This document shows positions 9,365 to 26,728 of a stretch of 50,923 nucleotides of DNA, piece after piece. Each line of letters starts with the position of its first letter. Position 1 is the first letter of the stretch. Below the pieces are notes generated by a model that was given only the letters and a program-made list of their open reading frames with translations, searched no databases and was not told where the DNA came from. The position numbers and the translations under genes were made by a program. Location: positions 1-50,923 of the forward strand of contig NZ_FZON01000037.1 in NCBI RefSeq assembly GCF_900188425.1, in the 5' to 3' direction. The DNA comes from Antarctobacter heliothermus. Its GTDB lineage: Bacteria > Pseudomonadota > Alphaproteobacteria > Rhodobacterales > Rhodobacteraceae.

Positions 9365-9898
9365 ATGCCGGCAAACCCGTTTATAGCCCAAGTCATTCCT
9401 TTTGCGGGGAATTTCGCGCCACGCGGCTGGGCGTTTTGCGATGGGCAACTCTTGCCGATTAGCCAGAACACGGCGCTCTTTTCGCTGATTGGCACGATCT
9501 ATGGCGGCGACGGCCGCACCACCCTTGCGCTGCCGGACCTGCGCGGTCGTGCAGCCATACATCCGGGACGCGGCCCGGGCCTGTCGACCTATCGGCTGGG
9601 TGAGAAGGGCGGGCAGGAGCGTGTGACGCTGAATACACTCGAGATCCCGCAGCACAACCATAGCGTCAGGTCGCTTGCGGAATCGCGTGGCGGCAACCTG
9701 ACCGATCCGGGCGGCAACATGCTGGCTTCGGGGACGCCGATCTATCGCGCCAATACTCCAGCGGATGATGTGGATATGGACCCTTCGATGATCCGGCAGA
9801 ACAATGTCGGGGGCGGTCAGGCGCATGAGAACAGGCCGCCCTTTCAGGCGTTGAACTATATCATTGCGTTGGTCGGCGTCTTTCCGTCGCGCAGCTAG
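9365..9898 (+). CDS. Phage tail collar domain protein (microcystin-dependent protein type), copy 1
   Basis: A 177-residue protein built on the short collar domain. The N-terminal half carries 'IPFAGNFAPRGWAFCDGQLL', 'GTIYGGDGRTTLALPDLRGR' and 'KGGQERVTLNTLEIPQHNH'. This is the arrangement of the MdpB/short tail fibre collar family. It ends 'LNYIIALVGVFPSR', the conserved C-terminus of the group. No signal peptide is seen. Members occur both in phage tails and in stand-alone bacterial clusters of unknown function, and this locus is of the second kind. Start ATG 9365 has only a weak ribosome site (AGCAGGGG). Two paralogues follow at once. Confidence 0.85.
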   Translation: MPANPFIAQVIPFAGNFAPRGWAFCDGQLLPISQNTALFSLIGTIYGGDGRTTLALPDLRGRAAIHPGRGPGLSTYRLGEKGGQERVTLNTLEIPQHNHSVRSLAESRGGNLTDPGGNMLASGTPIYRANTPADDVDMDPSMIRQNNVGGGQAHENRPPFQALNYIIALVGVFPSRS

Positions 9899-9982
9899 GT
9901 CCGCCCGGACCGTCAGCCGCGCGTACCTAGGCCGCCGGGTCAACGACCCAAGAGAGCCATTCCAGATACAGAAAGTTCCACC

Positions 9983-10522
9983 ATGTCCGAACCATTCCTT
10001 GCCGAAATCTCGATGTTCGGGGGCAATTTTGCCCCCCGCGGATGGGCCTTTTGCGACGGTCAGATCCTGCCGATCAACCAAAATCAATCGCTTTATTCGC
10101 TGTTGGGGACGACCTATGGCGGAGATGGGCGCACATCGTTCGCGCTGCCTGATCTGCGCGGACGTATCCCGGTGCACTCGGGAAACGGATCGACCGGGCC
10201 CGGCCTGTCGCCCTATGTGCTGGGGCAAAAGGGCGGCGTGGAGACGGTGACGTTGATCGTGAATGAGTTGCCTGCCCACAATCACGGTGTTGCGGTGCGC
10301 GCGGAATCCCGTGGCGGCAACCTCGCCGATCCGGGCGGCAACATGCTGGCGGCGGGGTCTTCGGTCTTTCGCGCCAATACGCCAGCGGATGACGTCGACA
10401 TGGATGCGGCGATGATCCAGCAGTTCAACGTCGGCGGTGGTCAGGCGCACTACAACATGCCGCCGTTTCAGGTGGTCAACTACATCATCGCCCTTCAGGG
10501 CCTGTTTCCGTCGCGCAACTGA
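9983..10522 (+). CDS. Phage tail collar domain protein, copy 2
   Basis: A 179-residue paralogue of the preceding gene with the same signature blocks: 'MFGGNFAPRGWAFCDGQILP', 'TTYGGDGRTSFALPDLRGRI', 'LPAHNHGV' and the C-terminal 'VVNYIIALQGLFPSRN'. The differences lie mostly between residues 60 and 90 and in the last third. The separation of 84 bp from copy 1, with no strong terminator, suggests cotranscription. As in the other copies, the N-terminus lacks a signal peptide, so any export would need a special route or a partner. Confidence 0.85.
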   Translation: MSEPFLAEISMFGGNFAPRGWAFCDGQILPINQNQSLYSLLGTTYGGDGRTSFALPDLRGRIPVHSGNGSTGPGLSPYVLGQKGGVETVTLIVNELPAHNHGVAVRAESRGGNLADPGGNMLAAGSSVFRANTPADDVDMDAAMIQQFNVGGGQAHYNMPPFQVVNYIIALQGLFPSRN

Positions 10523-10611
10523 CGGAACGCGGGGGCCGGTTGCGGCGCGGCAGGATGGCCGCTCAGCCCGATTCCCGCAGGATCGCACATATATAAAAAG
10601 GGAATTGCAAG

Positions 10612-11142
10612 ATGTCTGAACCGTATGTCGCCCAAATCACGATGTTCGCGGGCAACTTTGCGCCACGCGGCTGGGCTTTCTGTGACGGTCAATTGCTGGC
10701 GGTCTCGCAGAACGATGCCCTGTTCTCGTTGCTGGGAACGATCTATGGCGGGGACGGGCGCACGACGTTTGGTCTGCCGGATCTGCGCGGACGCGCTGCC
10801 ATGCATGCCGGCAGCGGACCGGGCCTGTCGACCTATCGCATTGGCCAAAAGGGTGGGCAAGAGCGGGTGACGCTGACCACGAACCAGATGCCCTCGCACA
10901 ACCACGGCGTCACCATGCGCGCGGAATCGCGTGGCGGCAATCTGACCGATCCGGGCGGCAACATGCTGGCGGCGGGGTCGTCGATCTTTCGCACCAATAC
11001 TCCAGCAGACGACGTGGGCATGGATGCCGCGATGATCCGGCAAAACAACGTCGGCGGAAGCCAGTCTCACAACAACTTGCCGCCCTTTTTGGCCGTGAAC
11101 TACATCATCGCCCTGGTCGGCATTTACCCGTCGCGCAATTGA
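10612..11142 (+). CDS. Phage tail collar domain protein, copy 3
   Basis: A 176-residue third paralogue, with 'MFAGNFAPRGWAFCDGQLLA', 'GTIYGGDGRTTFGLPDLRGR', 'MPSHNHGVTMRAESRGGN' and C-terminal 'VNYIIALVGIYPSRN'. By eye it is closest to copy 1 (the GPGLSTYR and KGGQERVTL blocks are shared). The 'RAESRGGNL.DPGGNMLAAGSS' block is shared with copy 2, which may reflect gene conversion within the array. The gap of 89 bp to copy 2 and 29 bp to the next gene supports an operon. Confidence 0.85.
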   Translation: MSEPYVAQITMFAGNFAPRGWAFCDGQLLAVSQNDALFSLLGTIYGGDGRTTFGLPDLRGRAAMHAGSGPGLSTYRIGQKGGQERVTLTTNQMPSHNHGVTMRAESRGGNLTDPGGNMLAAGSSIFRTNTPADDVGMDAAMIRQNNVGGSQSHNNLPPFLAVNYIIALVGIYPSRN

Positions 11143-11171
11143 TGCAACCCATTGACACAAAGGAGAGCGCC

Positions 11172-11642
11172 ATGGGTGTTCTGAACAGTCTTTCACGGCG
11201 CGCCGTTCTGGCGGGCCAGGCGGCCTTGGCGGGCCTCACCGCGCTGCCAGGTGTCGCAATGGCGCGCACCGGGCCGGTCACACAAGCGCCCGAAGGGGCG
11301 GCCCCGATTGTCGCCCGCGCACCGCGCTGGCACGATGCCACCGCAGAGGAACTGGCCAGCCTGGTCGGAGAACGGTTCCGCGTCTCGACCAAGGCGCATG
11401 GGGACGTAGTCCTGAAGCTGGTGGCGCTGGAACCGGGCGCATCCGGCCCTGCGCGACCCGGCGATCTTGCCCGGCGCGAAAGCGTCACGGCATTGTTCGA
11501 CAGCCCGGATGCCGGGCCGCTGGTGGCGGATGGTGACGGGCTGCACCGGGTCTGGCACCCGCGTATGGGCGCGGCGGATCTGTACATGACGGCAGTGCCG
11601 CGCCGGCATGGCGGTGCCGATATTGCCATCGTCCTGAACTGA
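11172..11642 (+). CDS. Tat-secreted DUF6916-like protein
   Basis: A 156-residue protein with a twin-arginine signal: MGVLNSLSRRAVLAGQAAL followed by a hydrophobic run and VAMA, so export of a folded protein is expected. The mature part has the DUF6916-like pattern: 'LVGERFRVST' near its start, a central 'SVTALFDSPDAGPLVADGDGL' segment, 'MGAADLYMTAVPRR' and a C-terminal 'ADIAIVLN'. DUF6916-type proteins are recurrently encoded beside collar proteins, as I recall. The gene is 29 bp after collar copy 3 with GGAGAG before ATG 11172. A structural or chaperone-like partner for the collar proteins is inferred, not shown. Confidence 0.7.
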   Translation: MGVLNSLSRRAVLAGQAALAGLTALPGVAMARTGPVTQAPEGAAPIVARAPRWHDATAEELASLVGERFRVSTKAHGDVVLKLVALEPGASGPARPGDLARRESVTALFDSPDAGPLVADGDGLHRVWHPRMGAADLYMTAVPRRHGGADIAIVLN

Positions 11643-11652
11643 GCCCGATTTC

Positions 11653-12132
11653 GTGAGCCTGATCTTGCGCCCGGTCCGTGCCGCGGACCGGGCGTTTCTA
11701 TTGCAGCTGTTCATCCAGGTGCGTCCCGATCTTGCCGCGTTGCCATTGCCGGTCGAGGCGCGGCAGCACATGATCGACATGCAGTTTGACGCACAGGATC
11801 GCGGTTATGCGGACGGCTTCCCCCATGCCAGCCACGACATCGTGGTGGCCGGAGGGCAGGACGTGGGCCAAATGCGCGTCGACCGGGGCGCAAAGGCAAT
11901 TCACCTGATTGATGTGTCCGTGCTGGTGGCGGCGCAGGGGCGGGGTCTTGGCACCAGCCTTCTCCACCAACTGCGGGACGAGGCGACCCGTGCCGGACTG
12001 CCGATCAGGCTGAGCGTTCAACATGGCAACCGTGCCGTGGATCTGTATCGGCGTTCGGGGTTCATGGTGACCGGGGACAGCGGCGTTCATCTGGTGATGG
12101 AATGGCGCCCCGCCGGTCTCGCGCCTAGTTGA
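11653..12132 (+). CDS. GNAT-family N-acetyltransferase
   Basis: A 159-residue acetyl-CoA-dependent acetyltransferase. The acetyl-CoA pyrophosphate loop is visible as QGRGLGTSLL (about residues 95-104), preceded by the beta-4 strand IDVSVLVAA and followed by 'VQHGNRAVDLYRRSGFMVTG', which is typical of GNAT motif B. The start is GTG 11653, 10 bp after the DUF6916-like gene, so it is the last gene of the rightward collar operon. Its stop overlaps the convergent small DUF6916-like gene by 8 bp. A substrate in this locus, such as a collar protein or a sugar amine, is possible but not shown. Confidence 0.85.
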   Translation: MSLILRPVRAADRAFLLQLFIQVRPDLAALPLPVEARQHMIDMQFDAQDRGYADGFPHASHDIVVAGGQDVGQMRVDRGAKAIHLIDVSVLVAAQGRGLGTSLLHQLRDEATRAGLPIRLSVQHGNRAVDLYRRSGFMVTGDSGVHLVMEWRPAGLAPS

Positions 12133-12427
12133 AGATGATCTCGTAGCGGGTGGCGGTGTCGGTCTGGTCAAAGGGCGACAGAAACAGCGCGGCCGCGCCG
12201 AGGCCGGGCAGGGTGATCTCCCATGCGCCCTGTTCCAGCATGGGAGACTGCGGCCCACTGAGGGTCACGGTGAATCCTCCGCGCACTGCCGCGTCGGGGC
12301 GGCTGTCGCCGGAATGGGGCGCAACCGAATCGACTGTCAGCGCCAAGGCACCCTGAGACGTGGCGACCGAAACGGGCTGGCCGATCAGGGGTTCAACCTG
12401 TTCGGCGGTCAGTGTGGCAACGTCCAT
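12125..12427 (-). CDS. Leaderless DUF6916-like protein
   Basis: A 100-residue protein, MDVATLTAEQVEPLIGQPVS..., with central 'GGFTVTLSGPQSPMLEQGAW', then 'LGAAALFLSPF' and C-terminal 'RYEIIFN'. The layout matches the Tat-secreted protein at 11172 but is the more typical form of DUF6916 (short, no signal peptide). ATG 12427 is chosen because the longer frame upstream has no conservation logic and would enter the promoter area. The gene lies on the opposite strand to its neighbours, overlaps the GNAT stop by 8 bp and is divergent from the Hint-protein gene. Confidence 0.7.
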   Translation of the reverse strand: MDVATLTAEQVEPLIGQPVSVATSQGALALTVDSVAPHSGDSRPDAAVRGGFTVTLSGPQSPMLEQGAWEITLPGLGAAALFLSPFDQTDTATRYEIIFN

Positions 12428-12573
12428 GGTCGATCTCCGTGCATCAGGCGACTTGGCTGGCCATCTTGCAACCTTATGAGGGCTTTTCAAGTTCCTGTTT
12501 GCAGCTTATTACTCGCATAACAGAGTTACTGTTAGTCTTTATTGACATAAGCACGGCGCAAAGGGTGGGCACC
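12428..12573. promoter_or_regulatory. Divergent promoter region with inverted repeat
   Basis: A 146-bp A/T-rich gap between the divergent small DUF6916-like gene and the Hint-protein gene, clearly lower in G/C than its surroundings. It holds a perfect inverted repeat TAACAG-AGTTA-CTGTTA at 12518-12534, about 40 bp before the Hint start codon. An operator for a shared regulator is a reasonable reading. No regulator gene lies in the cluster itself. Confidence 0.5.
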
Positions 12574-13602
12574 ATGGCAACATTTGATTTCAATGATGGA
12601 GGCGTGGTGGTCAATGCCTCTTCGGTGGCGTTCAACGACACCGGCGTCAATTTTACAATCAGCACCGTGGCCAACCCGGGTGGCAACCAGATTTCCTACA
12701 GCCCGACAATCGCCCCGGACGGCTCTTTTACCATGTCCGACTTCGGCACACTCGGCGCGTTCACCTTTGACGTCGCAGGAACCGAACCGAGCCAGTTTTT
12801 TCAGGGCAACGGCCTGCAACTGGAGATCGGCACGATTTATTCTGGCAACTGGAACGTGACGTTTGTGTCCACCGCTGGCGACAACGTCACCAACAACGTC
12901 ACTGTCGTCAATGTCACCAGCAACCAGATCATCGATCTGGGCGCCAGCTCCAAGGTGTTCTCGGAAATCCGCTTTACCCCTACCTCTGCGGGCGGCATGA
13001 CCGTTGACAGCCTGAACGCCACGCTGCTGTGCTTCCTCGAGGGCACGATGATCGCCACCCCGGACGGGGAAAAGGCGGTTGAGGCGTTGCAGGCAGGCGA
13101 CGTGGTCATGACCGCGACCGGCGGCACCACCACCGTTGCATGGCTGGGCGAACAGCCGGTGGCGACGGCAACGACAAACCCCGCCAAGGTCAACCCGATC
13201 CGCATTCGCGCCGGTGCGCTGGGCGACATGATCCCCGCGCGTGATCTGCTTGTGTCCCCCGACCACGCTATCGGCATCGACGGGTATCTGGTCAACGCCA
13301 GCGCCCTAATCAATGGCAGCACGATCACCCGTGAGGGCCAGATGCCCGGCGCGGGCTTTACCTACTTCCACGTCGAGACCGGCACACATGAGTTGCTGCT
13401 GGCCGAGGGCTGCCCGGCAGAAACCTATGTCGATTTCATCGGCCGCGACGGCTTTGTGAACTGGGCAGAGCGTACGGACGCACCGGCGATCGCTGAAATG
13501 GCCGCACCGCGCATCAGCGCCGCGCGTCACCTGCCGGCACCGATCCGCGCCCGTCTGGAAGGCCGCGCAGAGGCGTTGGGATTGAACACCCGCGCCGCCT
13601 GA
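12574..13602 (+). CDS. Hint (Hedgehog/intein) domain protein
   Basis: A 342-residue protein. The N-terminal 150 residues are Gly/Thr/Asn/Val-rich beta-type sequence with no classical signal peptide. A Hint_2-type module starts at LLCFLEGTMIATPDGEKAVE: Cys153 is the expected nucleophile. Further features are 'LQAGDVVMTA', the block-B region DLLVSPDHAI with His231, and 'ETGTHELLLAEGCPAETY'. Hint modules self-cleave or splice by an N-S acyl shift. The many short Hint_2 proteins of Rhodobacteraceae and acetic acid bacteria are, as far as I know, uncharacterised. ATG 12574 has AAAGGGTGGGC upstream. The C-terminal 60 residues are Ala/Arg-rich. It lies immediately before the TPR-sulfotransferase gene. 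Confidence 0.82.
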   Translation: MATFDFNDGGVVVNASSVAFNDTGVNFTISTVANPGGNQISYSPTIAPDGSFTMSDFGTLGAFTFDVAGTEPSQFFQGNGLQLEIGTIYSGNWNVTFVSTAGDNVTNNVTVVNVTSNQIIDLGASSKVFSEIRFTPTSAGGMTVDSLNATLLCFLEGTMIATPDGEKAVEALQAGDVVMTATGGTTTVAWLGEQPVATATTNPAKVNPIRIRAGALGDMIPARDLLVSPDHAIGIDGYLVNASALINGSTITREGQMPGAGFTYFHVETGTHELLLAEGCPAETYVDFIGRDGFVNWAERTDAPAIAEMAAPRISAARHLPAPIRARLEGRAEALGLNTRAA

Positions 13603-13629
13603 CAGCGACTATTTCAACGTGACATGCGC

Positions 13630-13660
13630 CGCGCCCGGGGGATTGACTTCGCCGGGCGCG
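13630..13660 (+). terminator. Hairpin after the Hint gene
   Basis: Stem CGCGCCCGG / CCGGGCGCG (9 bp) with a 13-base loop, 27 bp after the Hint stop codon, followed by the pyrimidine-rich CTTGCCTTTCTCC. A weak intrinsic terminator or attenuator before the sulfotransferase gene. Confidence 0.6.
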
Positions 13661-13697
13661 CTTGCCTTTCTCCGGGTGCCGAATGGGAGACCCCGAC

Positions 13698-15536
13698 ATG
13701 ACCAGCCCCGCCGCGCCGACCGATGCTGCCGCCGTCGAAACCGTCAACGCCGAATTGGCCCGCATTGCCCGTCACCAGAACGCTGGGCGTTTCGCCGAGG
13801 CCGGTGCCGCTCTGGACCGCTTGCTGGAACAGTACCCCGGACACCCCCGGTTGGTGCATCTTCAGGGGCTGAACCTCGTCCACCTTGGGCAGACCGAGGC
13901 GGGCATGGCACTGCTGGATGAGGTGGTGGCGCATAATCCTGAGGATGTGACCGCGCTGGTCGATATCGGCACGCTTCTGGCGCAGCAGGGCAAGATGGAT
14001 GACGCCCGAGAAAAGTTCCAGACCGCGGTTGAGGTGGCACCGAATTACGCGCTGGCCCATGCCAACCTGGGGGCGGCCCTGGTCGTGGCCAGGGACTATG
14101 TGCGCGCCATCCCGCATCTGGACCGCGCCATCGCGTTGGACCCGGGTGTTCTGGACGTGCATCTGAACCTTGCACAGGCCTGCCTGCGGACCGGGCATTT
14201 TCAGCGCGCAGTCGATGCTCTGTTCAGGGCACTGGCCATTGATCCGCAGTCGGCCGCGGTGCACGTCAATCTGGCGCAGGCGCTGTTCCGGCGCGAACGG
14301 CACGAGGCGGCGGAACACCACGCCCGCCGCGCCATCGAACTGGCACCGCAGGCCGGTGAGGCCTGGCTGCATCTGGGCAATACGCTGGCCGCCTCGGGAC
14401 GGATGGACGAGGCCGCGCAGGCCTTTCTAAAGGCGGCAACGCTGCCAGGCATGGCGCTGACGGGCTTTTCGCGGCTTGCGAATTTGCGCAAGACCACGCC
14501 CGACAGTCCCGAATGGCAGGGGTTGCAGTTGCTGGCGGAGAAGGCTGATCAATTGCCCGATGAGCCGCGCGTGACGTTGGAATTCTCTCTTGGCAAGGCG
14601 CGCGATGATCTGGGCGATCACGATGCCGCCTTTGCCCATTACGCCGAAGGCAATCGCCTGACCCGCACCCTGTATCCCTATGACCGCGCCGTGAATGTCG
14701 CCCGCGCCGAACGGATACGCGCGCTGGTCACGCCTGCGCTGCTGACGCGGCACGCCAAAGCCGGGCTGCGTGGTGTCGCGCCGATCTTTGTCTGCGGGCT
14801 GCCGCGTTCTGGCACCACCTTGATGGAGCAGATGCTGTCGCGCCATCCGGACGTGCAGGCCGGGGGAGAGTTGCCAGCGGTGCAGCGTGCCTTTCAGGCC
14901 AATGCGCCGCTGCGCGCGGTGATGGAGGAACGCAGCCCCGATGACGCCCTGACCGATGATGACCTGACCCGACTGGGCGAAGACTATCAGGCCTATCTGC
15001 ATGGCGAAGGGCTGCGCAGCCTCCATATCACCGACAAGATGCCGGGAAATCAGCTATACGCCGGTCTGCTGGCGCTTGCGCTGCCAGAGGCCAAATTCCT
15101 CATCATGCGGCGGCATCCGCTGGACGGTCTGGTGTCGAATTACCTGCAAAACTTTGGTCAGAACCAGCCGGTCTCGACCGATCTGGAGGATCTTGCGGAA
15201 TCCTGGCGCCAGTTCGATCAGAACGCAAAACACTGGGCGGCGCTGTTGCCGGACCGCGTGCATGAGGTGTCCTATGAGGCGCTGGTTGCCGACCCGGAGG
15301 GGCAGGCCCGCGACGTGCTGGAATTCCTCGGACTGGACTGGCATGCCGACGTGCTGGACCACACCGCGTCCTCGCGGCAGGTCAATACCGCCTCCGTGGC
15401 GCAGGTGCGTGCGCCGATCTACGGCACCTCGGTCGCCCGCTGGCGGCGCTACGGTGCGCATCTGGCCCCGCTGGCGGCGGCGCTGGGGGACGCGCTGACC
15501 GAAGAAGAACGTATCGCGTGCGGGCTGGACGCCTGA
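13698..15536 (+). CDS. TPR-repeat sulfotransferase
   Basis: A 612-residue cytoplasmic-type protein. Residues about 20-330 are TPR repeats (for example 'LAHANLGAALVVARDYVRAI', 'EAWLHLGNTLAASGRMDEAA'). Residues about 360-600 are a PAPS-dependent sulfotransferase domain. The 5'-phosphosulfate loop is FVCGLPRSGTTLMEQML and the 3'-phosphate region is KFLIMRRHPLDGLVSNYLQ. The 'VHEVSYEALVADPEGQARDV' helix is also typical. It would transfer sulfate from PAPS to a hydroxyl of a sugar, protein or small molecule, with TPRs recruiting the acceptor. Start ATG 13698 has GGGAGA upstream. It is nearly joined to the next gene (3 bp between stop and start), so both are one transcription unit. Confidence 0.88.
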   Translation: MTSPAAPTDAAAVETVNAELARIARHQNAGRFAEAGAALDRLLEQYPGHPRLVHLQGLNLVHLGQTEAGMALLDEVVAHNPEDVTALVDIGTLLAQQGKMDDAREKFQTAVEVAPNYALAHANLGAALVVARDYVRAIPHLDRAIALDPGVLDVHLNLAQACLRTGHFQRAVDALFRALAIDPQSAAVHVNLAQALFRRERHEAAEHHARRAIELAPQAGEAWLHLGNTLAASGRMDEAAQAFLKAATLPGMALTGFSRLANLRKTTPDSPEWQGLQLLAEKADQLPDEPRVTLEFSLGKARDDLGDHDAAFAHYAEGNRLTRTLYPYDRAVNVARAERIRALVTPALLTRHAKAGLRGVAPIFVCGLPRSGTTLMEQMLSRHPDVQAGGELPAVQRAFQANAPLRAVMEERSPDDALTDDDLTRLGEDYQAYLHGEGLRSLHITDKMPGNQLYAGLLALALPEAKFLIMRRHPLDGLVSNYLQNFGQNQPVSTDLEDLAESWRQFDQNAKHWAALLPDRVHEVSYEALVADPEGQARDVLEFLGLDWHADVLDHTASSRQVNTASVAQVRAPIYGTSVARWRRYGAHLAPLAAALGDALTEEERIACGLDA

Positions 15537-15539
15537 CCC

Positions 15540-18371
15540 TTGAACGCAAAGAGCATCCCTGAACTTCTGGCCCAGGCACGGACGCTACATACCGGCGGCG
15601 ACCCTGACGGCGCGGACCAGTTGTATGATCAGGTTCTGACTCTGCGGCCCGCTCACGCCGGGGCCTGGCTGGAACGGATAGAACTGGCGTTGGGGCGTGG
15701 CCTGGCCGGTCAGGTGCTGGACCTGTGCGATAGGGCGGCGCCGCTCTGCCCCGATCATCGGGTGGCGCTGCAATCCAAGCGCGCCCGCGCGTTGGAGGCA
15801 CAAGGCGCGCGTGAGGCGGCGTTGGCCTTGTTGTCCGATCTGCGCAGCGATGCGCCAGAGGATCTGCCGCTGGCCGCTGTCACCGCAGGGATGTGGCACC
15901 GGGCGGGTGAATTGGAACAGGCCGAACAGGTCTATCGAGACGTGCTGACCCTGCGGCCCGATCACGCGGGGGCGTGGCTGACCGTGGTCGAGATTGCTCT
16001 GGTCCGTGGCAACGCCGAACAGGCGCTGGCCCTGTCCACGGAGGCAGAGAAACATTGTCCCGCGCATGTGGTTCCGTTGCAGATAAAGCGGGTGCGCGCG
16101 CTAGAGGCGGTGGGGCAGGCGGATGCCGCCCTGGCGCTGACCGTGTCACTGCGCGCCACCGCTCCGGAGAATGCCCAACTTGCGCTGATAGAGGCGCGGA
16201 TCCGGCGCAAGTCCGGCGATCTGGTTGCAGCGGATGCCGCCTATCGTGATGTCTTGCAGCGGCAACCTGATCACTTCGGGGCCTGGCTGGGCCGGATCGA
16301 CATTGCCCAGACCGAAGGTGATCCCGATCGCGCATTTGCCCTGGTGGTCGAGGTACAAGCGATCCGGCCCGGTGATCCCGCCCTGATCGCCCGACAGGCC
16401 GGGTTGTTGTTGCACATGGGGCGGCCAGAGGCCGCCATTGACCGTCTGACCGCCGCCTTGGTCGAGGTGCCGCAAGAGGCGCGCCTGCATCTGGAACTGG
16501 CCCGCGCAATGATGCAGGCAGGCCGAACCGAAGAGGCCGAAAAACGCTTTGCCGATTGCCTGACCGCCGCCCCGGACAACGCTGACGTGCGGCTGGAACT
16601 GGCGCAGGCACAGGCGGCGCGCGGGGCACCAGAGGCGGCGTTGGCCACATTGGAGGGGCATGCCGACGGCAGTCTGGCGCTGGATCTCAAGACCGCCGAG
16701 CTTTTGGCGCTTGCAGGGCAGGGCAGCCGCCTCGCCGCGCTGCTGGATCGTCTGGCGGCTGCGGTCCCCCGGATGAGCGAGGCAGAGCTGTTGCGGCTGT
16801 TCAAGCTGGGGGAGCAATCCGATCATTCCGCCGCTGCGGTGGCCGTGGTGGGCAATGTCGCCGCCCGCACCGCGCTTTCGCCGCTGATCGCGCGGTTTCT
16901 GCTGACCCGGGCGCGGGTGATCCTGCCGCCCGAGACGGTGACAGGGGTGCAGGATGCGCTTGAATCCCGACTGCCCGCGTCACGTTTGCCAGAGTTTCGC
17001 GCCTTTGCCACCGGGTTGCTGTTTGGCCCCGAGGCAGCGCTGACACGCGCCCGCGCCGATCTGCCCGCCCGCCGTGACACGCAGGGCGCCGTGCTGTTGG
17101 GCGAACGTCTGCTGGACGCCGGTGAGCGGCAGATAGCGTTTCGATATCTGCGCGCCTGCGTCCGGCGTTGGCCTGGTGCGCCGCGTCTGCGCCGTCAGTT
17201 CCTGCGCGCGGCCATCGAGACCGGACACCTTGAGGCAGGGCACGCCTGGCTGGACGCGCTTGAGGCGCGCTTTGCCGGGCTGGACCTGGGGTTGGACCGC
17301 ATGCATCTGATGGTGCAGGAGGGGCGGTTGACGGAAACCCGCGATCTGGCAGAGACCCGCGCCCGCGCCGGTCTGGCCACGCCGCCGCCGCGCCAGTTTC
17401 TGGATGTGGCGCTGGCGCTTGGCGATGTTGAGGCCTCTGCCGATCTGGTCCGACAGGTGCAGAGCGACCCCGAGGCCGGGCGGCAAAGCGCGGCGCATTT
17501 CTCGACCACGCTGCACGGTGCGCAGTTCAATGAATTGCGCCTGTTCTGCGACGCGCGGGATCAGGCAGAGGCCACGGGCGAGGCGCCTGAACAGGCGCGC
17601 GCCCGTTTGGCGCAGGATTTCTTCTTTCCTGCCGCGCAGATCGTTGCCGGGCATGTCGGGCGGCTGGGGCCACGGCCCGGGTCATCAACGGTGCCGCGAA
17701 GGATCTTTCAGTACTGGAACACGCCCAAGGTGCCCGAAGAGGTCGCCAGCCTGATGCAAAGCTGGCAGGGCGCGGCGGGGTTCGATCATCAGCTTTATGA
17801 CCGGTCCCGGGCGATGGTCTTCTTGCGCGAACACTTTGGCCCGCGCCATGCCCGCGCCTTTCAACTGGCGAACTCCCCGGCGGAGGAATGCGATTTCCTT
17901 CGGTTGTGTCTGCTGTACCGCCATGGCGGGATCTATGCCGACGCGGATGACAAGCTGGCCGGAAACCTGGAGGCGCTGATCTCCGAAGGGCCGGGGATGA
18001 TCGTGACGCGTGAGCTGTGGGGCGCTGTCGCCAACAACGTGATTTGCGCGCCCGAAGGTCATCCGCTTGTGCTCTGGGCGTTGCAGTCGGCAGGGCGGTC
18101 CTTGTTGGCGCGGGAAAACGATGGCACCTGGTTCAAGACCGGACCGGGGCTGATGACCCGCGCGGTGGCCAACTGGCTGGGGCAGGCCACCCCGGCAGAG
18201 GCAGAGGCGGGTCTGACAATCCTGACGCAGGCGCAACTGGCGGCCCACGTCCAGCCTCATGTGCGCCTCAGCTACAAGACCTCAGGCCAATACTGGAACG
18301 CGCGGGACCGCCACGCGCCGCAGGCGTTGGTTGCCGCCTTTGGCAGGTTGGCGGACTCGACCCGCGCGTAG
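15540..18371 (+). CDS. Large TPR protein with C-terminal OCH1/DXD-type glycosyltransferase domain
   Basis: A 943-residue protein. Residues 1 to about 640 are tandem TPR-like repeats with near-identical openings ('DQVLTLRPAHAGAWLERIEL', 'RDVLTLRPDHAGAWLTVVEI', 'RDVLQRQPDHFGAWLGRIDI'), evidence of internal duplication. From about residue 715 a Gly_transf_sug domain begins with 'PRRIFQYWNTPKVPEEVASL' and continues with 'SPAEECDFLRLCLLYRHGGI' and 'YADADDKL', the DXD metal/nucleotide-sugar site near residue 800. It resembles OCH1-like sugar transferases that act on nucleotide sugars. The start is TTG 15540, 3 bp after the sulfotransferase stop, which implies translational coupling. Acceptor unknown; a shared acceptor with the sulfotransferase is inferred. 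Confidence 0.82.
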   Translation: MNAKSIPELLAQARTLHTGGDPDGADQLYDQVLTLRPAHAGAWLERIELALGRGLAGQVLDLCDRAAPLCPDHRVALQSKRARALEAQGAREAALALLSDLRSDAPEDLPLAAVTAGMWHRAGELEQAEQVYRDVLTLRPDHAGAWLTVVEIALVRGNAEQALALSTEAEKHCPAHVVPLQIKRVRALEAVGQADAALALTVSLRATAPENAQLALIEARIRRKSGDLVAADAAYRDVLQRQPDHFGAWLGRIDIAQTEGDPDRAFALVVEVQAIRPGDPALIARQAGLLLHMGRPEAAIDRLTAALVEVPQEARLHLELARAMMQAGRTEEAEKRFADCLTAAPDNADVRLELAQAQAARGAPEAALATLEGHADGSLALDLKTAELLALAGQGSRLAALLDRLAAAVPRMSEAELLRLFKLGEQSDHSAAAVAVVGNVAARTALSPLIARFLLTRARVILPPETVTGVQDALESRLPASRLPEFRAFATGLLFGPEAALTRARADLPARRDTQGAVLLGERLLDAGERQIAFRYLRACVRRWPGAPRLRRQFLRAAIETGHLEAGHAWLDALEARFAGLDLGLDRMHLMVQEGRLTETRDLAETRARAGLATPPPRQFLDVALALGDVEASADLVRQVQSDPEAGRQSAAHFSTTLHGAQFNELRLFCDARDQAEATGEAPEQARARLAQDFFFPAAQIVAGHVGRLGPRPGSSTVPRRIFQYWNTPKVPEEVASLMQSWQGAAGFDHQLYDRSRAMVFLREHFGPRHARAFQLANSPAEECDFLRLCLLYRHGGIYADADDKLAGNLEALISEGPGMIVTRELWGAVANNVICAPEGHPLVLWALQSAGRSLLARENDGTWFKTGPGLMTRAVANWLGQATPAEAEAGLTILTQAQLAAHVQPHVRLSYKTSGQYWNARDRHAPQALVAAFGRLADSTRA

Positions 18372-22056: not shown

Positions 22057-23160
22057 ATGGCTGGTGTTCAGCTCAATGGTATCGTCAAGGCGTACGGTGC
22101 CGTGCAGGTCGTCCATGGGATTGATCTGGAAGTGAACGAACAGGAATTCGTTGTGCTTGTCGGCCCGTCAGGATGCGGCAAATCCACGACTCTGCGCATG
22201 ATTGCAGGGCTGGAAGAGATTTCCGACGGCGATCTGACAATCGACGGCCGGCGCGTCAACCGCGTCGCCCCCAAGGATCGCGACGTGGCGATGGTGTTTC
22301 AGAACTACGCGCTCTATCCGCACCTGAACGTCGCCGAAAACATCGCCTTTGGCCTGCGCATCCGCAAGGAAAGCAAAGAGGTGATCGCCTCTTCGGTCGA
22401 AGAGGTGGGCAACATCCTTGGCCTGACGCCCTATCTGGAGCGTCGCCCCGCCGACCTGTCGGGTGGTCAGCGCCAGCGCGTTGCCATGGGCCGCGCCATC
22501 GTGCGCCGCCCCAAGGTGTTCCTGTTCGATGAACCGCTGTCCAACCTCGACGCCAAGCTGCGCACGCAGATGCGCGCCGAGATCAAGCGCCTGCACAAGC
22601 GTTTGGGCGTGACCAGCATCTACGTCACCCACGACCAGGTCGAGGCGATGACGCTGGCGGACCGGATTGTCGTCATGAACGACGGCAAGATCGAACAGGT
22701 CGGCTCTCCGATGGACCTGTTCCTGAACCCGGCCAATACCTTTGTCGCGGGCTTTCTTGGCTCGCCGCCGATGAACATGGTTGCGGCGCAGATCACGTCG
22801 GGCGGCGATGCGCCGGTGGCAGAGTTTGGCGGTCAGCGGCTGACGCTGGCACCGCTGCCCTCGCTGCAAAACGCCGTGGGCAAGAACGTGATCCTGGGCA
22901 TCAGGCCGGAATTTGTCCGGATCGCCGACGACAGCGCGGCGGACAGCGTCAAGGTGGAGGTCGATCTGACCGAAACCCTGGGCTCCGAGGCGTTGATCCA
23001 CGCCAGCCTGAACGGCGAACCCTTTGTCATCCGCACCGAAACCGTGGGCCAGATGAACGTTCTGGACGGGATTTCGGGCTTTACCATCGCGCCGAACCTG
23101 ATCCGCGTCTTTGACGCAGAAACCGGGGTCGCGCTGCCGGGACAGGTGACAGAACAATGA
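22057..23160 (+). CDS. algS: Oligoalginate ABC importer, ATP-binding subunit (AlgS-like)
   Basis: A 367-residue MalK/UgpC-type ATPase. Walker A GPSGCGKST, Q-loop FQNYALYPHL, signature LSGGQRQRVAMGRA, Walker B VFLFDEPLSNLD and switch YVTHDQVEAMT are followed by a TOBE-type regulatory domain from about residue 240. This is the normal build of CUT1 sugar importers. The start ATG 22057 has GGGGAGGAGGA in front; a much longer in-frame extension upstream would run through the operators and is rejected. Its stop overlaps the first permease start in ATGA. The specificity (alginate oligosaccharides) is inferred from the AlgQ-like and PL15-like genes downstream. Confidence 0.88.
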   Translation: MAGVQLNGIVKAYGAVQVVHGIDLEVNEQEFVVLVGPSGCGKSTTLRMIAGLEEISDGDLTIDGRRVNRVAPKDRDVAMVFQNYALYPHLNVAENIAFGLRIRKESKEVIASSVEEVGNILGLTPYLERRPADLSGGQRQRVAMGRAIVRRPKVFLFDEPLSNLDAKLRTQMRAEIKRLHKRLGVTSIYVTHDQVEAMTLADRIVVMNDGKIEQVGSPMDLFLNPANTFVAGFLGSPPMNMVAAQITSGGDAPVAEFGGQRLTLAPLPSLQNAVGKNVILGIRPEFVRIADDSAADSVKVEVDLTETLGSEALIHASLNGEPFVIRTETVGQMNVLDGISGFTIAPNLIRVFDAETGVALPGQVTEQ

Positions 23161-24152
23161 GCAGCGATCCCGATTTCACCGGCCCCAAGACCGAGGAATT
23201 GGTCATCGAGGCCCGCGAGGCGCAGCGAGAGCGCAAACCCAGCAGAATGAACCGTGTCGGGGACCACCTGAAACGCGAATGGCAGCTCTATGCCATGTTG
23301 ATCCCGACCATCCTGTGGCTGCTGATCTTCCTCTACAAGCCGATGTACGGCCTGCAGATTGCCTTCAAGGACTATTCGATCTTCCGCGGTGTCGCGGGCA
23401 GTCCCTGGATCGGGTTCGAACACTTCGACGCCCTGTTCAACAACGATCAGTTCCTGCGCGCGTTGCGCAACACCATCATCATCAGCATGTACGGCCTGCT
23501 CTTTGGCTTTCCCATGCCGATCCTGCTGGCGCTGATGTTCAACGAAGTGCTGCACAAGGCGTTCAAGAACACCGCGCAGACCATCGTCTACCTGCCGCAC
23601 TTCATCTCTTCGGTGATCATCGCGGGGATTGTCATAACGGCCTTCTCTCCATCTGCGGGTATCGTGAACACGATCCTTGGATGGTTCGGGATGGACTCGA
23701 TCTACTTTCTGACCAAACCGGAATGGTTCAGGCCGATCTTTGTCGGTACGGGCATCTGGCAAGAGGCGGGTTTCCAGTCGATCGTCTACCTGGCCGCTAT
23801 CGCCGGTGTCTCCCCCACGCTGTACGAAAGCGCGGTCGTGGATGGCGCCAGCCGCTGGCAGATGATGTGGAAGATCACGATCCCGTCGATCATGCCGACC
23901 ATCATCATCATGTTGATCATCCGCATCGGCAACATGCTCGAAGTCAGCTTTGAGATGATCATCCTGCTGTACCAGCCCGCAACCTTCGAGACCGCGGATG
24001 TGGTGAACACCTTCATCTATCGCCAGGGCATCCAGGGCGGTCAGTACGACCTTGCCGCGGCTGCGGGCCTGTTCAACGCGGTGGTCGCCTTTGTTCTGGT
24101 GATGACGGCCAACACGATCTCAAAGCGCTATTCGCGCACGTCGCTGTGGTGA
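23157..24152 (+). CDS. algM1: Oligoalginate ABC importer, permease 1 (AlgM1/LplB type)
   Basis: A 331-residue permease of the LplB/YteP group, with an N-terminal cytoplasmic extension of about 40 residues, then 'YAMLIPTILWLLIFLYKPMY' as the first membrane segment. The EAA loop reads 'YESAVVDGASRWQMMWKITI'. This permease class serves importers for polyuronate and other lyase-released oligosaccharides, including AlgM1 of Sphingomonas A1. It starts inside the ATPase stop codon (ATGA overlap) and is followed after 13 bp by the second permease, so coupling is expected. Confidence 0.88.
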   Translation: MSSDPDFTGPKTEELVIEAREAQRERKPSRMNRVGDHLKREWQLYAMLIPTILWLLIFLYKPMYGLQIAFKDYSIFRGVAGSPWIGFEHFDALFNNDQFLRALRNTIIISMYGLLFGFPMPILLALMFNEVLHKAFKNTAQTIVYLPHFISSVIIAGIVITAFSPSAGIVNTILGWFGMDSIYFLTKPEWFRPIFVGTGIWQEAGFQSIVYLAAIAGVSPTLYESAVVDGASRWQMMWKITIPSIMPTIIIMLIIRIGNMLEVSFEMIILLYQPATFETADVVNTFIYRQGIQGGQYDLAAAAGLFNAVVAFVLVMTANTISKRYSRTSLW

Positions 24153-24165
24153 GGGAGCAAGCAAC

Positions 24166-25047
24166 ATGGCCAACATGAACCTCTATTCGCGCGGTGACAA
24201 ACTCTTCGTCATCATCAACATGGTCCTGATCGCACTGTTCACGATCTCAACCCTCTACCCGTTCATCTACATCGCGTCGCTGTCGCTCAGCACTGGCTTT
24301 GAGGCCCGCGCCGGCAACGTGATCCTGACGCCGGTGGGCTTTACCCTGGAGGCCTACAAGCAGGTCCTCAGCGAGCCGATGTTCTGGACCAGCTACAAGA
24401 ACACGTTCATCTACACGATCGGCGGCACGCTGATGAGCCTGCTGTTCATCATTCCGGGGGCCTACGCCCTGTCGCGTCCGCAACTCTACGGTCGGCGGTT
24501 CTGGAACCTGATGGTCGCCTTTACCATGTGGTTCCACGCCGGGATGATCCCCTTTTTCCTGAACATGCGGGATCTGGGACTGCTGGACAGCTATTTCGGC
24601 ATCATCATCGGCTTTGCGGTCAACGGCTTCAACATCATCCTGCTGCGCAACTTCTTCGAGGGCATTCCGCAATCGTTCGAAGAGGCGGCGCGGATGGACG
24701 GCGCCAACGAATTCCAGGTGCTGTGGAAGGTCTTTGTCCCGCTGTCGAAACCGGCCATCGCCACGGTCGCATTGTTCTGCATCGTGTCACGCTGGAACGG
24801 GTTCTTCTGGGCGATGGTCCTCTTGCAGGACGACGAAAAGATCCCGCTGCAGGTCTACCTGCGCCACGTCATCGTCGAACTGTCCGACGATGAGGAATTC
24901 GCCAGCACCCTGATCAACGCCACCTACTCGTTCGAGACGGTCAGCGCCGCGATCATCGTCTGCTCGATCATCCCGATCCTGATGATCTACCCCTTCCTTC
25001 AGAAGTACTTCAGCAAGGGTATCCTGCTGGGTGGGGTCAAAGAGTAA
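24166..25047 (+). CDS. algM2: Oligoalginate ABC importer, permease 2 (AlgM2/YtcP type)
   Basis: A 293-residue partner permease of the YtcP/AraQ type; AlgM2 of Sphingomonas A1 has, as I recall, the same length. The first membrane segment is 'LFVIINMVLIALFTISTLYP'. The EAA loop is 'FEEAARMDGANEFQVLWKVF' and it ends 'YPFLQKYFSKGILLGGVKE', the standard tail of this class. ATG 24166 has GAGGGAGC upstream. Together with permease 1 it forms the heterodimeric channel that accepts oligosaccharides from the binding protein encoded next. Confidence 0.9.
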   Translation: MANMNLYSRGDKLFVIINMVLIALFTISTLYPFIYIASLSLSTGFEARAGNVILTPVGFTLEAYKQVLSEPMFWTSYKNTFIYTIGGTLMSLLFIIPGAYALSRPQLYGRRFWNLMVAFTMWFHAGMIPFFLNMRDLGLLDSYFGIIIGFAVNGFNIILLRNFFEGIPQSFEEAARMDGANEFQVLWKVFVPLSKPAIATVALFCIVSRWNGFFWAMVLLQDDEKIPLQVYLRHVIVELSDDEEFASTLINATYSFETVSAAIIVCSIIPILMIYPFLQKYFSKGILLGGVKE

Positions 25048-25081
25048 CCGACTAAACTGTTGTCGCAACTGGGAGGAAACC

Positions 25082-26644
25082 ATGCGAAAACTATCCTTGG
25101 CCTTGACCATTCTGGGCACCACGTCCCTGACTGTTCCCGCCTACGCAGAAAGCCATCTGCAAGTCGTGGATAAGCCGGTCGAACTGACGATCCACATGCA
25201 CTGGCCACGCGCGCAGGGCTATATGGTGCCGAAGTCCGGTGAGCCCTATCCGGTCGAACTGGAAGCTCGCAAGCTGACCGGTGTCTCGTTGATCGACGCC
25301 ACAGCCGGACGCAACTCCACCGACAGCAACGAGGCGATGAACCTGCTGATCGCTCAGGGCAAGATGCCCGACATCGTCGGCGGTCACCTGATCCAGCAGC
25401 CGGTCAACGAATACGGCCCGCAGGGCGCCTTTGTGCCGCTCAACGAACTGGTTGAAGAGCATGCGCCCAACATCGCGAAGTTCTGGGAGGACCATCCGGG
25501 CCTGAAAGAGGCGATCTCGGCCTTTGACGGCAACTACTACTACATTCCCTACCTGCCCGACGGCAAATATGGCCGGGCATGGTTCATCCGTCAGGACTGG
25601 CTGGACGCACTTGGGCTGGAACAGCCGCAGGACGTGGATGAGCTGTATGACGTGATGGTGGCGTTCCGCGATCAGGACCCGAACGGCAACGGTCTGAAGG
25701 ACGAAATTCCCTACTTCGCCCGCCAGTGGGAAGAAGTGAACCGCCTGCTCACCCTGTGGGATGCGCGGTCGTCCGGGTCGGACACCTACCATGACTTTTA
25801 CGTCAATGACGAAGGCAAGCTGGTGCATCCCTACGCCCAGGTCGCTTATCGTGACGCGCTGGCCAATGTCGCCAAATGGTACGCCGAAGGCCTGATCGAC
25901 CCCGAGATCTTTACCCGTGGTTCGTCGTCGCGTGACTACCTGCTGTCCGAAAACCTCGGTGGCATGACCCATGACTGGTTCGCTTCGACTTCGGGCTACA
26001 ACGACGCCCTTGGCGACAAGATCGACGGCTTCAACTTCATCCCGTTCCTGCCGCCCGCGTCTGCCGGTGGCGTGCGGATGGAAGAGCACCGCCGCATCCC
26101 GATCAAGCCGGATGGCTGGGCGATCAGCCACCAGGCCAAAGACCCGGTCACGGTCATCAAGTACTTTGACTTCTGGTTTACCGAAGAGGGCCGCCTGCTG
26201 TCCAACTTCGGCGTCGAAGGCAAGACATGGGACATGGTCGACGGAGAGCCGGTCTACAAACCCGAAGTGCTGAACAGTGACAGCCCGGTCAACAGCCAGA
26301 TGTATCTGGAAGGCGCACAGATCCAGCGCGGCTACTGGCAGGACTACCGCTACGAATGGCAGTGGACGTCCGAGGCCGCCCGCAAGGGGATCGAGCTGTA
26401 TGACACCCACGATCTGCTGATCGACCAGTTCCTTGGCGTTGCGCTGAACAAGAAGGAACAGGCTGTCTTTGACCGTTACTGGCCGTCCCTGCGTACCTAC
26501 ATGCTGGAGCGCCAGCAGGCCTGGATCCTCGGATCGGGCGACGTTCAGGCAGATTGGGACGACTACACCAAGACGCTGGACAAGATGGGCTATGCGGACG
26601 TCATCGAGGTCCTGAACACCGCCTACGAGCGTCAGTACAACTGA
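25082..26644 (+). CDS. algQ: Alginate-oligosaccharide periplasmic binding protein (AlgQ1/AlgQ2-like)
   Basis: A 520-residue secreted solute-binding protein with signal peptide MRKLSLALTILGTTSLTVPA (cleavage near AYA-ES). It matches my memory of the Sphingomonas A1 AlgQ proteins at many places: 'DKPVELTIHMHW', 'GGHLIQQPVNEYGPQGAFVP', 'ARSSGSDTYHDFYV', 'LGGMTHDWFAST' and 'GYWQDYRYEWQWT'. The calcium site DPNGNGLKDE (about residues 199-208) is retained. It would bind unsaturated or saturated alginate oligomers in the periplasm and deliver them to AlgM1M2S. The start has GGGAGGAAACC upstream. No lipobox is visible, so it is a soluble periplasmic protein. Confidence 0.9.
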   Translation: MRKLSLALTILGTTSLTVPAYAESHLQVVDKPVELTIHMHWPRAQGYMVPKSGEPYPVELEARKLTGVSLIDATAGRNSTDSNEAMNLLIAQGKMPDIVGGHLIQQPVNEYGPQGAFVPLNELVEEHAPNIAKFWEDHPGLKEAISAFDGNYYYIPYLPDGKYGRAWFIRQDWLDALGLEQPQDVDELYDVMVAFRDQDPNGNGLKDEIPYFARQWEEVNRLLTLWDARSSGSDTYHDFYVNDEGKLVHPYAQVAYRDALANVAKWYAEGLIDPEIFTRGSSSRDYLLSENLGGMTHDWFASTSGYNDALGDKIDGFNFIPFLPPASAGGVRMEEHRRIPIKPDGWAISHQAKDPVTVIKYFDFWFTEEGRLLSNFGVEGKTWDMVDGEPVYKPEVLNSDSPVNSQMYLEGAQIQRGYWQDYRYEWQWTSEAARKGIELYDTHDLLIDQFLGVALNKKEQAVFDRYWPSLRTYMLERQQAWILGSGDVQADWDDYTKTLDKMGYADVIEVLNTAYERQYN

Positions 26645-26728
26645 TCCCGTCCAGACCCTTGAAAACACCAAGTGCGGCCGATCCAGGCCGCGCTTTCCCC
26701 GACCGCCAACAACAGGAACACCGGACCG

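Follow-up and report, generated by a model that had tools for sequence, protein, structure and literature searches.

A conserved cluster of nine genes, in which phage tail collar-type proteins are encoded beside two transferases with tetratricopeptide repeats (TPRs), occupies positions 9365-18371 of contig NZ_FZON01000037.1 of Antarctobacter heliothermus. The whole 50,923-nucleotide stretch analysed, which is contig 74 in a draft genome of 5.17 Mb, is referred to here as the window. On the basis of open reading frames and Pfam matches, three collar proteins (C1-C3), two DUF6916 proteins (D1 and D2), a GNAT acetyltransferase, a Hint protein, a TPR-sulfotransferase (ST) and a TPR-glycosyltransferase (GT) could be distinguished. 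All nine had been described, with the same domains, in an earlier note made from the sequence alone, and the tight spacing reported there is reflected in intergenic gaps of 84, 89, 29, 10, -8, 146, 95 and 3 bp. The cluster is very probably real and conserved, and comparison among genomes identifies it as one unit of composite nature, made up of two parts. In the Rhodobacterales its products may together form a single binding structure, modified and either secreted or displayed at the surface, a tentative reading to which a probability of about 0.4 is assigned. This is the best reading on account of the giant surface proteins encoded beside related loci, the Sec-type signals on the collars of a second cluster architecture, and the types of enzyme encoded.

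Conservation of the cluster in the Rhodobacterales

The draft genome contains three Collar matches in all (C1-C3), against 19 Hint_2 and seven Sulfotransfer_3 matches, and because the latter two are so numerous the adjacency of the Hint and ST genes would be unconvincing without comparison. An alignment of five ST orthologues was used to scan a collection of genome contigs, yielding 44 loci, which comprise an orthologous group (22 loci, L155-L176; 48-76 % identity) and a distant group (22 loci, L177-L198; 24-34 % identity, with L198 a short TPR match only). According to the record titles, the orthologous loci belong to Rhodobacterales genera including Mameliella, Roseovarius, Tateyamaria and Maritimibacter (Mameliella alba is Antarctobacter albus, Roseobacteraceae, in the present NCBI taxonomy). 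A collar is encoded in the stretch at thirteen of the orthologous loci (L155-158, L161, L166-171, L173 and L175) and is joined by a Hint orthologue at twelve of these, the exception being L168, where the contig ends inside the collar gene. GNAT and DUF6916 genes occur together at 8/22 loci, and a GT gene lies in the stretch at 8/22. By contrast, 0/22 distant loci have a collar, Hint, GNAT or DUF6916 gene. Chance adjacency was rejected on this comparison of orthologous with distant loci (collar linkage, Fisher p 2e-5; the species are related and not independent, so that this and the following p values are indicative only). Four of the orthologous stretches are cut by a contig end (L159, L160, L168 and L172), with the ST match beginning 244 bases in at L159 and 265 bases in at L172; a Hint gene is found at the contig end of L160, and Hint genes accompany a broken ST gene at L174. 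The neighbouring genes vary by genus, some being common to the close pairs L155/L157 and L163/L164, and since the flanks differ in this way the common part resembles a unit.

In the window's family, of which 150 genomes were compared, five have an ST orthologue (at least 574 bits; next match 268), and a sixth has an edge fragment. All six also encode a collar, which is present in 23/150 genomes overall, and a Hint relative scoring at least 204 bits and including the N-terminal domain (next match 169); for this co-occurrence the hypergeometric p is 5e-5 with the window's genome excluded. Relatives of the GT are found in 7/150 genomes, six of them with collars. Sequence distances of ST, Hint and collar proteins are furthermore correlated (Mantel r 0.75-0.86; 13 loci). 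The earlier note had held that the collar genes and the Hint, ST and GT genes would be two unrelated clusters if they were rarely neighbours in other genomes. Viewed from the ST, this is not the case. Viewed from the collar the full set is uncommon: the loci of all 23 collar genomes were opened, and three (the window's, G066 and G090) link collar, Hint, ST and GT, while two more (G113 and G032) have collar and Hint linked, with ST on a separate contig. The nine genes do not constitute a single operon, because the D2 gene lies on the opposite strand; the plus-strand genes fall into two units or more, one from the collars to GNAT and one from Hint to GT.

Two architectures and a wider collar module

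Two architectures could be distinguished among the ST orthologue loci. In architecture A, which is shared by the window and L155-158, L161, L166, L170 and L173, leaderless collar(s), D1, GNAT, the convergent D2, Hint and ST follow one another, all but D2 on one strand. D1 was not found in L161, and the GT gene is located downstream, upstream or outside the stretch (the last in three Mameliella). In architecture B (L167-L169, L171 and L175) the collar carries a Sec-type signal peptide and the ST gene is divergent, with a Hint gene present where the contig extends far enough and no GNAT or DUF6916 gene in these loci. One Hint and ST family thus accompanies collars of either export type. To call signal peptides, a simple criterion combining a hydrophobic stretch with positive charge and small residues was applied rather than a dedicated program. 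Across 74 loci, from which those collar-negative by profile (L056, L286, L294 and nine GTDB loci) were left out, GNAT/DUF6916 genes accompany leaderless collars at 35 loci and are absent from fourteen, while none of the 25 loci with signal-peptide collars has them (p 4e-10). Some genomes are in both the family and the GTDB sample (L045 and L166, L055 and L171, L140 and L162, and L143 and L172 represent the same genomes); with two repeats removed, the counts become 34, 14, 0 and 24.

The window collars C1 (9365..9898, plus strand; 177 aa; PF07484, 1.2e-28), C2 (9983..10522, plus strand; 179 aa; 3.5e-29) and C3 (10612..11142, plus strand; 176 aa; 1.4e-28) are all leaderless, share 69-75 % identity and score 99-101 bits against a gathering cut-off of 24. 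C2 and C3 begin with MSEPF and MSEPY, respectively, and C1 includes an HNH metal-site-like motif and a C-terminal FPSRS. An HxH motif at positions 97/99 is invariant in 17 aligned collars, which also have a C-terminal G-x-[FY]-P-S-R in common. Against solved structures, the collar profile matches the long tail fibre of a phage (8kec, 3e-11) and the short tail fibre protein gp12 of phage T4 (1ocy, 0.003). The collars are probably metal-binding trimers. They differ from phage tail collar proteins such as gp12 in lacking a shaft, in having no phage genes seen nearby, and in being small, arranged in tandem, accompanied by GNAT and DUF6916 genes, and furnished with the common C-terminal end. Sec-type signal peptides are found on related collars of the family, and a collar protein of Ruegeria pomeroyi, of whatever cluster type, is reported in the exoproteome obtained with Synechococcus (PMC4949626). 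In three family genomes, collar genes adjoin small proteins with PEP-CTERM-like tails (L046, L052 and L057; one by Pfam and two by eye), and in three genomes they share one location between metG and an MFS transporter gene (L043, L053 and L141; with a Hint gene in one only).

The first part of the cluster extends well beyond the Rhodobacterales. Among 299 Pseudomonadota genomes, DUF6916 occurs in 38 and Collar in 82, and by hand count a collar lies at most 6 kb from DUF6916 in 36/38 genomes, the window's included; in the two exceptions the collar is 45 kb away (G200) or was not found (G220). Twenty of the 36 loci (L257-L276) were opened, chosen for a close collar and DUF6916 without regard to GNAT, and the same GNAT subfamily is encoded in all twenty, including L258, L273 and L276, where the DUF6916 profile missed the protein that Pfam had matched. 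The usual order, three collars followed by GNAT and a convergent DUF6916, matches that of the window, which has leaderless collars, GNAT and the convergent D2. Collar, GNAT and convergent DUF6916 therefore form a module across the Pseudomonadota that is wider than the window's cluster. In a second set of 20 collar genomes outside the DUF6916 list, GNAT is found in 4/18 profile-positive collar loci, all four with a giant frame.

Giant frames, defined as stop-to-stop frames of at least 1200 aa with less than 11 % Arg (a few of which are perhaps spurious, and which were counted in stretches of unequal length), occur in 15/20 opened module loci, against 6/20 loci of the second collar set, 5/22 distant ST loci and 1/22 ST orthologue loci. 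Eight of the fifteen were scanned, and seven have immunoglobulin (Ig), cadherin, DUF4347, autotransporter or propeller domains. These include a protein with Ig repeats and an autotransporter barrel (L262), proteins with DUF4347 and cadherin or Ig domains (L273, L276 and L272), two with Ig-type domains (L264 and L267) and one with a propeller repeat (L268); the eighth (L257) had no domain match. At L269 the giant frame is 1583 aa long. The one giant frame among the ST orthologue loci (L161:14297-20326, uncultured Tateyamaria) lies three genes downstream of ST and encodes a 2009-aa protein in which glycosyltransferase domains of three kinds are combined.

The remaining proteins of the module are D1 (11172..11642, plus strand; 156 aa; PF21880, 2e-10), GNAT (11653..12132, plus strand; 159 aa) and D2 (12125..12427, minus strand; 100 aa; PF21880, 1e-20). 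D1 has a twin-arginine (Tat) N-terminus (SRRAVLAG), and twin arginines are present in 9/9 D1-type proteins (window, L155-158, L166, L170, L173 and L275). D2 has no signal and is convergent with GNAT, as in other Pseudomonadota. Outside the family, a second, Tat-signal-like DUF6916 protein is encoded beside a signal-less one (L268:8634-9080), so the pairing of exported and unexported DUF6916 proteins recurs. The GNAT belongs to the subfamily neighbouring leaderless collars, and its nearest NCBIfam family is RimI, under the cut-off. The AlphaFold model of D2 (pLDDT 86) comprises a helix and six strands, with weak likeness to PilZ-like and tail-protein-like barrels only. In the literature searched, DUF6916 was named in no paper found, and no title or abstract start concerned this cluster. 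Directly after D1, where the coding sequence of GNAT begins, a hairpin of 13 pairs followed by a T-rich tail (11667-11695) could serve in transcription attenuation or be coding sequence only.

The Hint protein and the TPR transferases

The Hint protein (12574..13602, plus strand; 342 aa) consists of an N-terminal beta-sandwich (residues 1-152), a Hint_2 domain starting at Cys153 (8e-40) and a conserved C-terminal tail. Cys153, S228, H231 and H272 are invariant in thirteen Hint proteins, and with the N-terminal nucleophile Cys153 and the [ST]xxH block (S228 and H231) the hallmarks of self-cleavage are present, from which cleavage before Cys153 can be predicted. The first Cys and the SxxH block are shared with Hedgehog- and intein-type Hint domains, and a solved bacterial intein-like domain (2lwy) is matched weakly (0.003); the beta-sandwich and the conserved tail set the window protein apart. 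Unlike inteins, it has by eye no C-terminal Asn-nucleophile end, and protein splicing is therefore not expected. Only the N-terminal domain of its structural model was used, as a lead, because the Hint half is unreliable; in Foldseek it weakly matches carbohydrate-binding modules and tailspikes (best E 9e-4). Hint relatives are found in 215 plasmid records, just two of which cover 80 % of the query.

The ST (13698..15536, plus strand; 612 aa) combines TPRs with a Sulfotransfer_3 domain (PF13469, 2e-44), of which the closest solved relatives are TPST1 and TPST2 (E 3e-13 to 3e-12), the heparan sulfotransferases matching at 5e-4 against 3e-13 for TPST1. A PRSGTT loop is present, and R370, E391 and K447 align with the R, E and K of the TPST1/2 active site and are invariant in five orthologues; we take these three to be the catalytic residues. 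In contrast to the TPSTs, the ST has a TPR arm of its own and shows no membrane anchor or signal. The bacterial RaxST is presumably a related system. The TPR part matches O-GlcNAc transferase (OGT). Relatives of the ST occur in 151 plasmid records, all below 60 % identity (~30-33 % among the ten listed), and three tandem TPR-sulfotransferase genes are found in Gammaproteobacteria assemblies (L177, L178 and L183).

The GT (15540..18371, plus strand; 943 aa) likewise combines TPRs with a catalytic domain, here Gly_transf_sug (PF04488, 4e-8), with a DXD motif (YADADD, 799-804) in which D801, D803 and D804 are invariant in seven proteins. Both enzymes resemble OGT and SPINDLY in joining a TPR superhelix to a transferase, and differ from them in that the catalytic domains are a sulfotransferase and a PF04488 DXD enzyme and not of the OGT type.

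A possible surface or secreted structure and its alternatives

Under the reading of a modified surface or secreted binding structure, the first part of the cluster would comprise one to three leaderless collars, of the type found at short-tail-fibre tips, with GNAT and the convergent DUF6916. Outside the window's family this part usually lies beside a giant protein of Ig, cadherin or autotransporter type, and it may prepare the collars to work with such a large surface partner, for instance if the MSEP start, being exposed, were acetylated at its N-terminus. The second part (Hint, ST and often GT) may stand in for the giant partner, which is a speculative idea, weakened by the rarity of giant frames near collars in the window's family. 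With their TPR arms, ST and GT would bind a cytoplasmic protein or the glycan on it, to which they would attach sulfate and sugar, respectively, while the Hint protein may cut before Cys153, whereby its N-terminal domain, with its weak likeness to carbohydrate-binding modules, would be released or attached. A more specific joint version appears improbable. Phage-tail-type knobs would be combined with a Hedgehog-like protein that, on cutting itself, gives its carbohydrate-binding domain to a sulfated and glycosylated partner made by the TPR-guided cytoplasmic enzymes, and GNAT and DUF6916 would act as maturation and Tat-escort factors dedicated to the leaderless collars.

The secreted or surface structure proposed in the earlier note is partly supported, in that the two halves belong together; the Sec-type signals on collars of the family and the R. 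pomeroyi exoproteome provide context. Several observations weigh against it. No export signal was seen on the window's collars, Hint, ST or GT, D1 alone having one. A giant frame lies near only 3/20 collar stretches of the window's family, none is present at L038 and L275 (family GNAT/DUF6916 loci without ST), and the window has no giant surface-type gene, its longest called gene encoding 998 aa. At 7/22 ST orthologue loci (L159, L162-165, L172 and L176) neither collar nor Hint is found in the stretch; the genomes of L162 and L172 carry both on other contigs, so that linkage is not absolute. The GT lies outside the stretch at 14/22 of these loci and is weakly conserved (28-36 % identity). The Hint model is poor in its Hint part (mean pLDDT 57), and the DUF6916 model has no Foldseek match at E<=0.001 in the PDB or among viral models. 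Finally, in a search limited to the cluster's proteins, no Tyr with at least three acidic neighbours within five residues occurs in the collars, Hint, GNAT or DUF6916 proteins. With no acidic tyrosine outside ST and GT, the usual target of a TPST is not evident in the cluster, a further difference from TPST1/TPST2.

This last result also favours the main rival, somewhat unlikely in our estimation, according to which ST and GT modify a surface polysaccharide or glycan instead of the cluster's own proteins, and the collars or the Hint N-terminal domain bind that glycan. Enzymes with the fold of this sulfotransferase accept a wide range of substrates, the Hint N-terminal domain weakly resembles carbohydrate-binding modules, and the 2009-aa protein with its three types of glycosyltransferase domain is encoded close to the cluster of L161. 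Against glycan sulfation, the ST is nearest among solved structures to the TPSTs and not to the carbohydrate sulfotransferases, and its TPR part matches a protein-modifying enzyme, O-GlcNAc transferase.

Export signals are missing from most of the cluster's proteins, and the collars beside GNAT/DUF6916 are leaderless in 35/35 loci, as would be expected if collar, DUF6916, Hint and transferases formed a cytoplasmic complex with a regulatory or defence role. This is considered rather improbable, given that each of the nine D1-type proteins seen has a twin-arginine signal, that the architecture B collars have Sec-type signals and that the parent module has surface-type neighbours. A known anti-phage defence system was rejected, with PADLOC matches in 0/9 proteins.

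A remnant of a prophage, tailocin or gene-transfer-agent tail tip with passenger genes is very unlikely, although the collars match phage tail families (PHROGs). Collar relatives occur in 370 phage records (identity below 60 % throughout, with 80 % or more of the query covered in 262; the ten listed are minor tail or collar proteins), and two collar loci of the family (L054 and L151) are prophage-like by eye. On the other hand, scans of 29 of the window's 48 called genes with Pfam or PHROGs revealed no capsid, terminase, portal or tail gene, nor any tube or sheath gene. The statement of the earlier note that phage genes are absent agrees with this, in that among the nine proteins the collars alone match phage tail families; ten other window proteins gave transporter-like or unnamed PHROGs families, none structural by name. 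At the other loci (tail genes were not systematically searched there) the partners that recur are GNAT, DUF6916, Hint and giant frames, and many collar relatives differ from phage tails in having Sec-type signal peptides. Least probable of all is that two unrelated clusters merely lie side by side, for although 18/23 family collar genomes have no linked Hint orthologue, Hint_2 is very common in the window's genome and the strand is broken by the D2 gene, this reading is opposed by the collar linkage of orthologous as against distant ST loci, by the correlated divergence of ST, Hint and collar, and by a gene order that varies (L045, L055, L170 and L173) while the gene set is kept.

The cluster is flanked on the left by an amino-acid ABC transporter and on the right by genes for a MATE transporter and a regulator of the GntR type. 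The window contains no tRNA and no Rfam match reaching the gathering score; a promoter scan of it was empty, and its terminator-like sites (12, against 7.5 expected) were not used. Further along, MalK-type ABC transporter genes lie beside a heparinase II/III-like protein with DUF4962 (22057-29050), and the 998-aa protein (38536-41532) is of DNA polymerase III alpha type, possibly of the error-prone DnaE2/ImuC kind.

Genes of the Collar, DUF6916 and Hint_2 families are common and little understood, and the comparison supplies them with partners. Across the Pseudomonadota those of leaderless collars are GNAT and DUF6916, often with a giant surface protein alongside, while in one family they are a Hint protein and two OGT-like enzymes, so that three obscure families become one testable system. 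The gene set hints at a mechanism, as yet undescribed, by which a decorated structure is built for secretion or for the cell surface, and with it at a possible bacterial route of protein or glycan sulfation in roseobacters.

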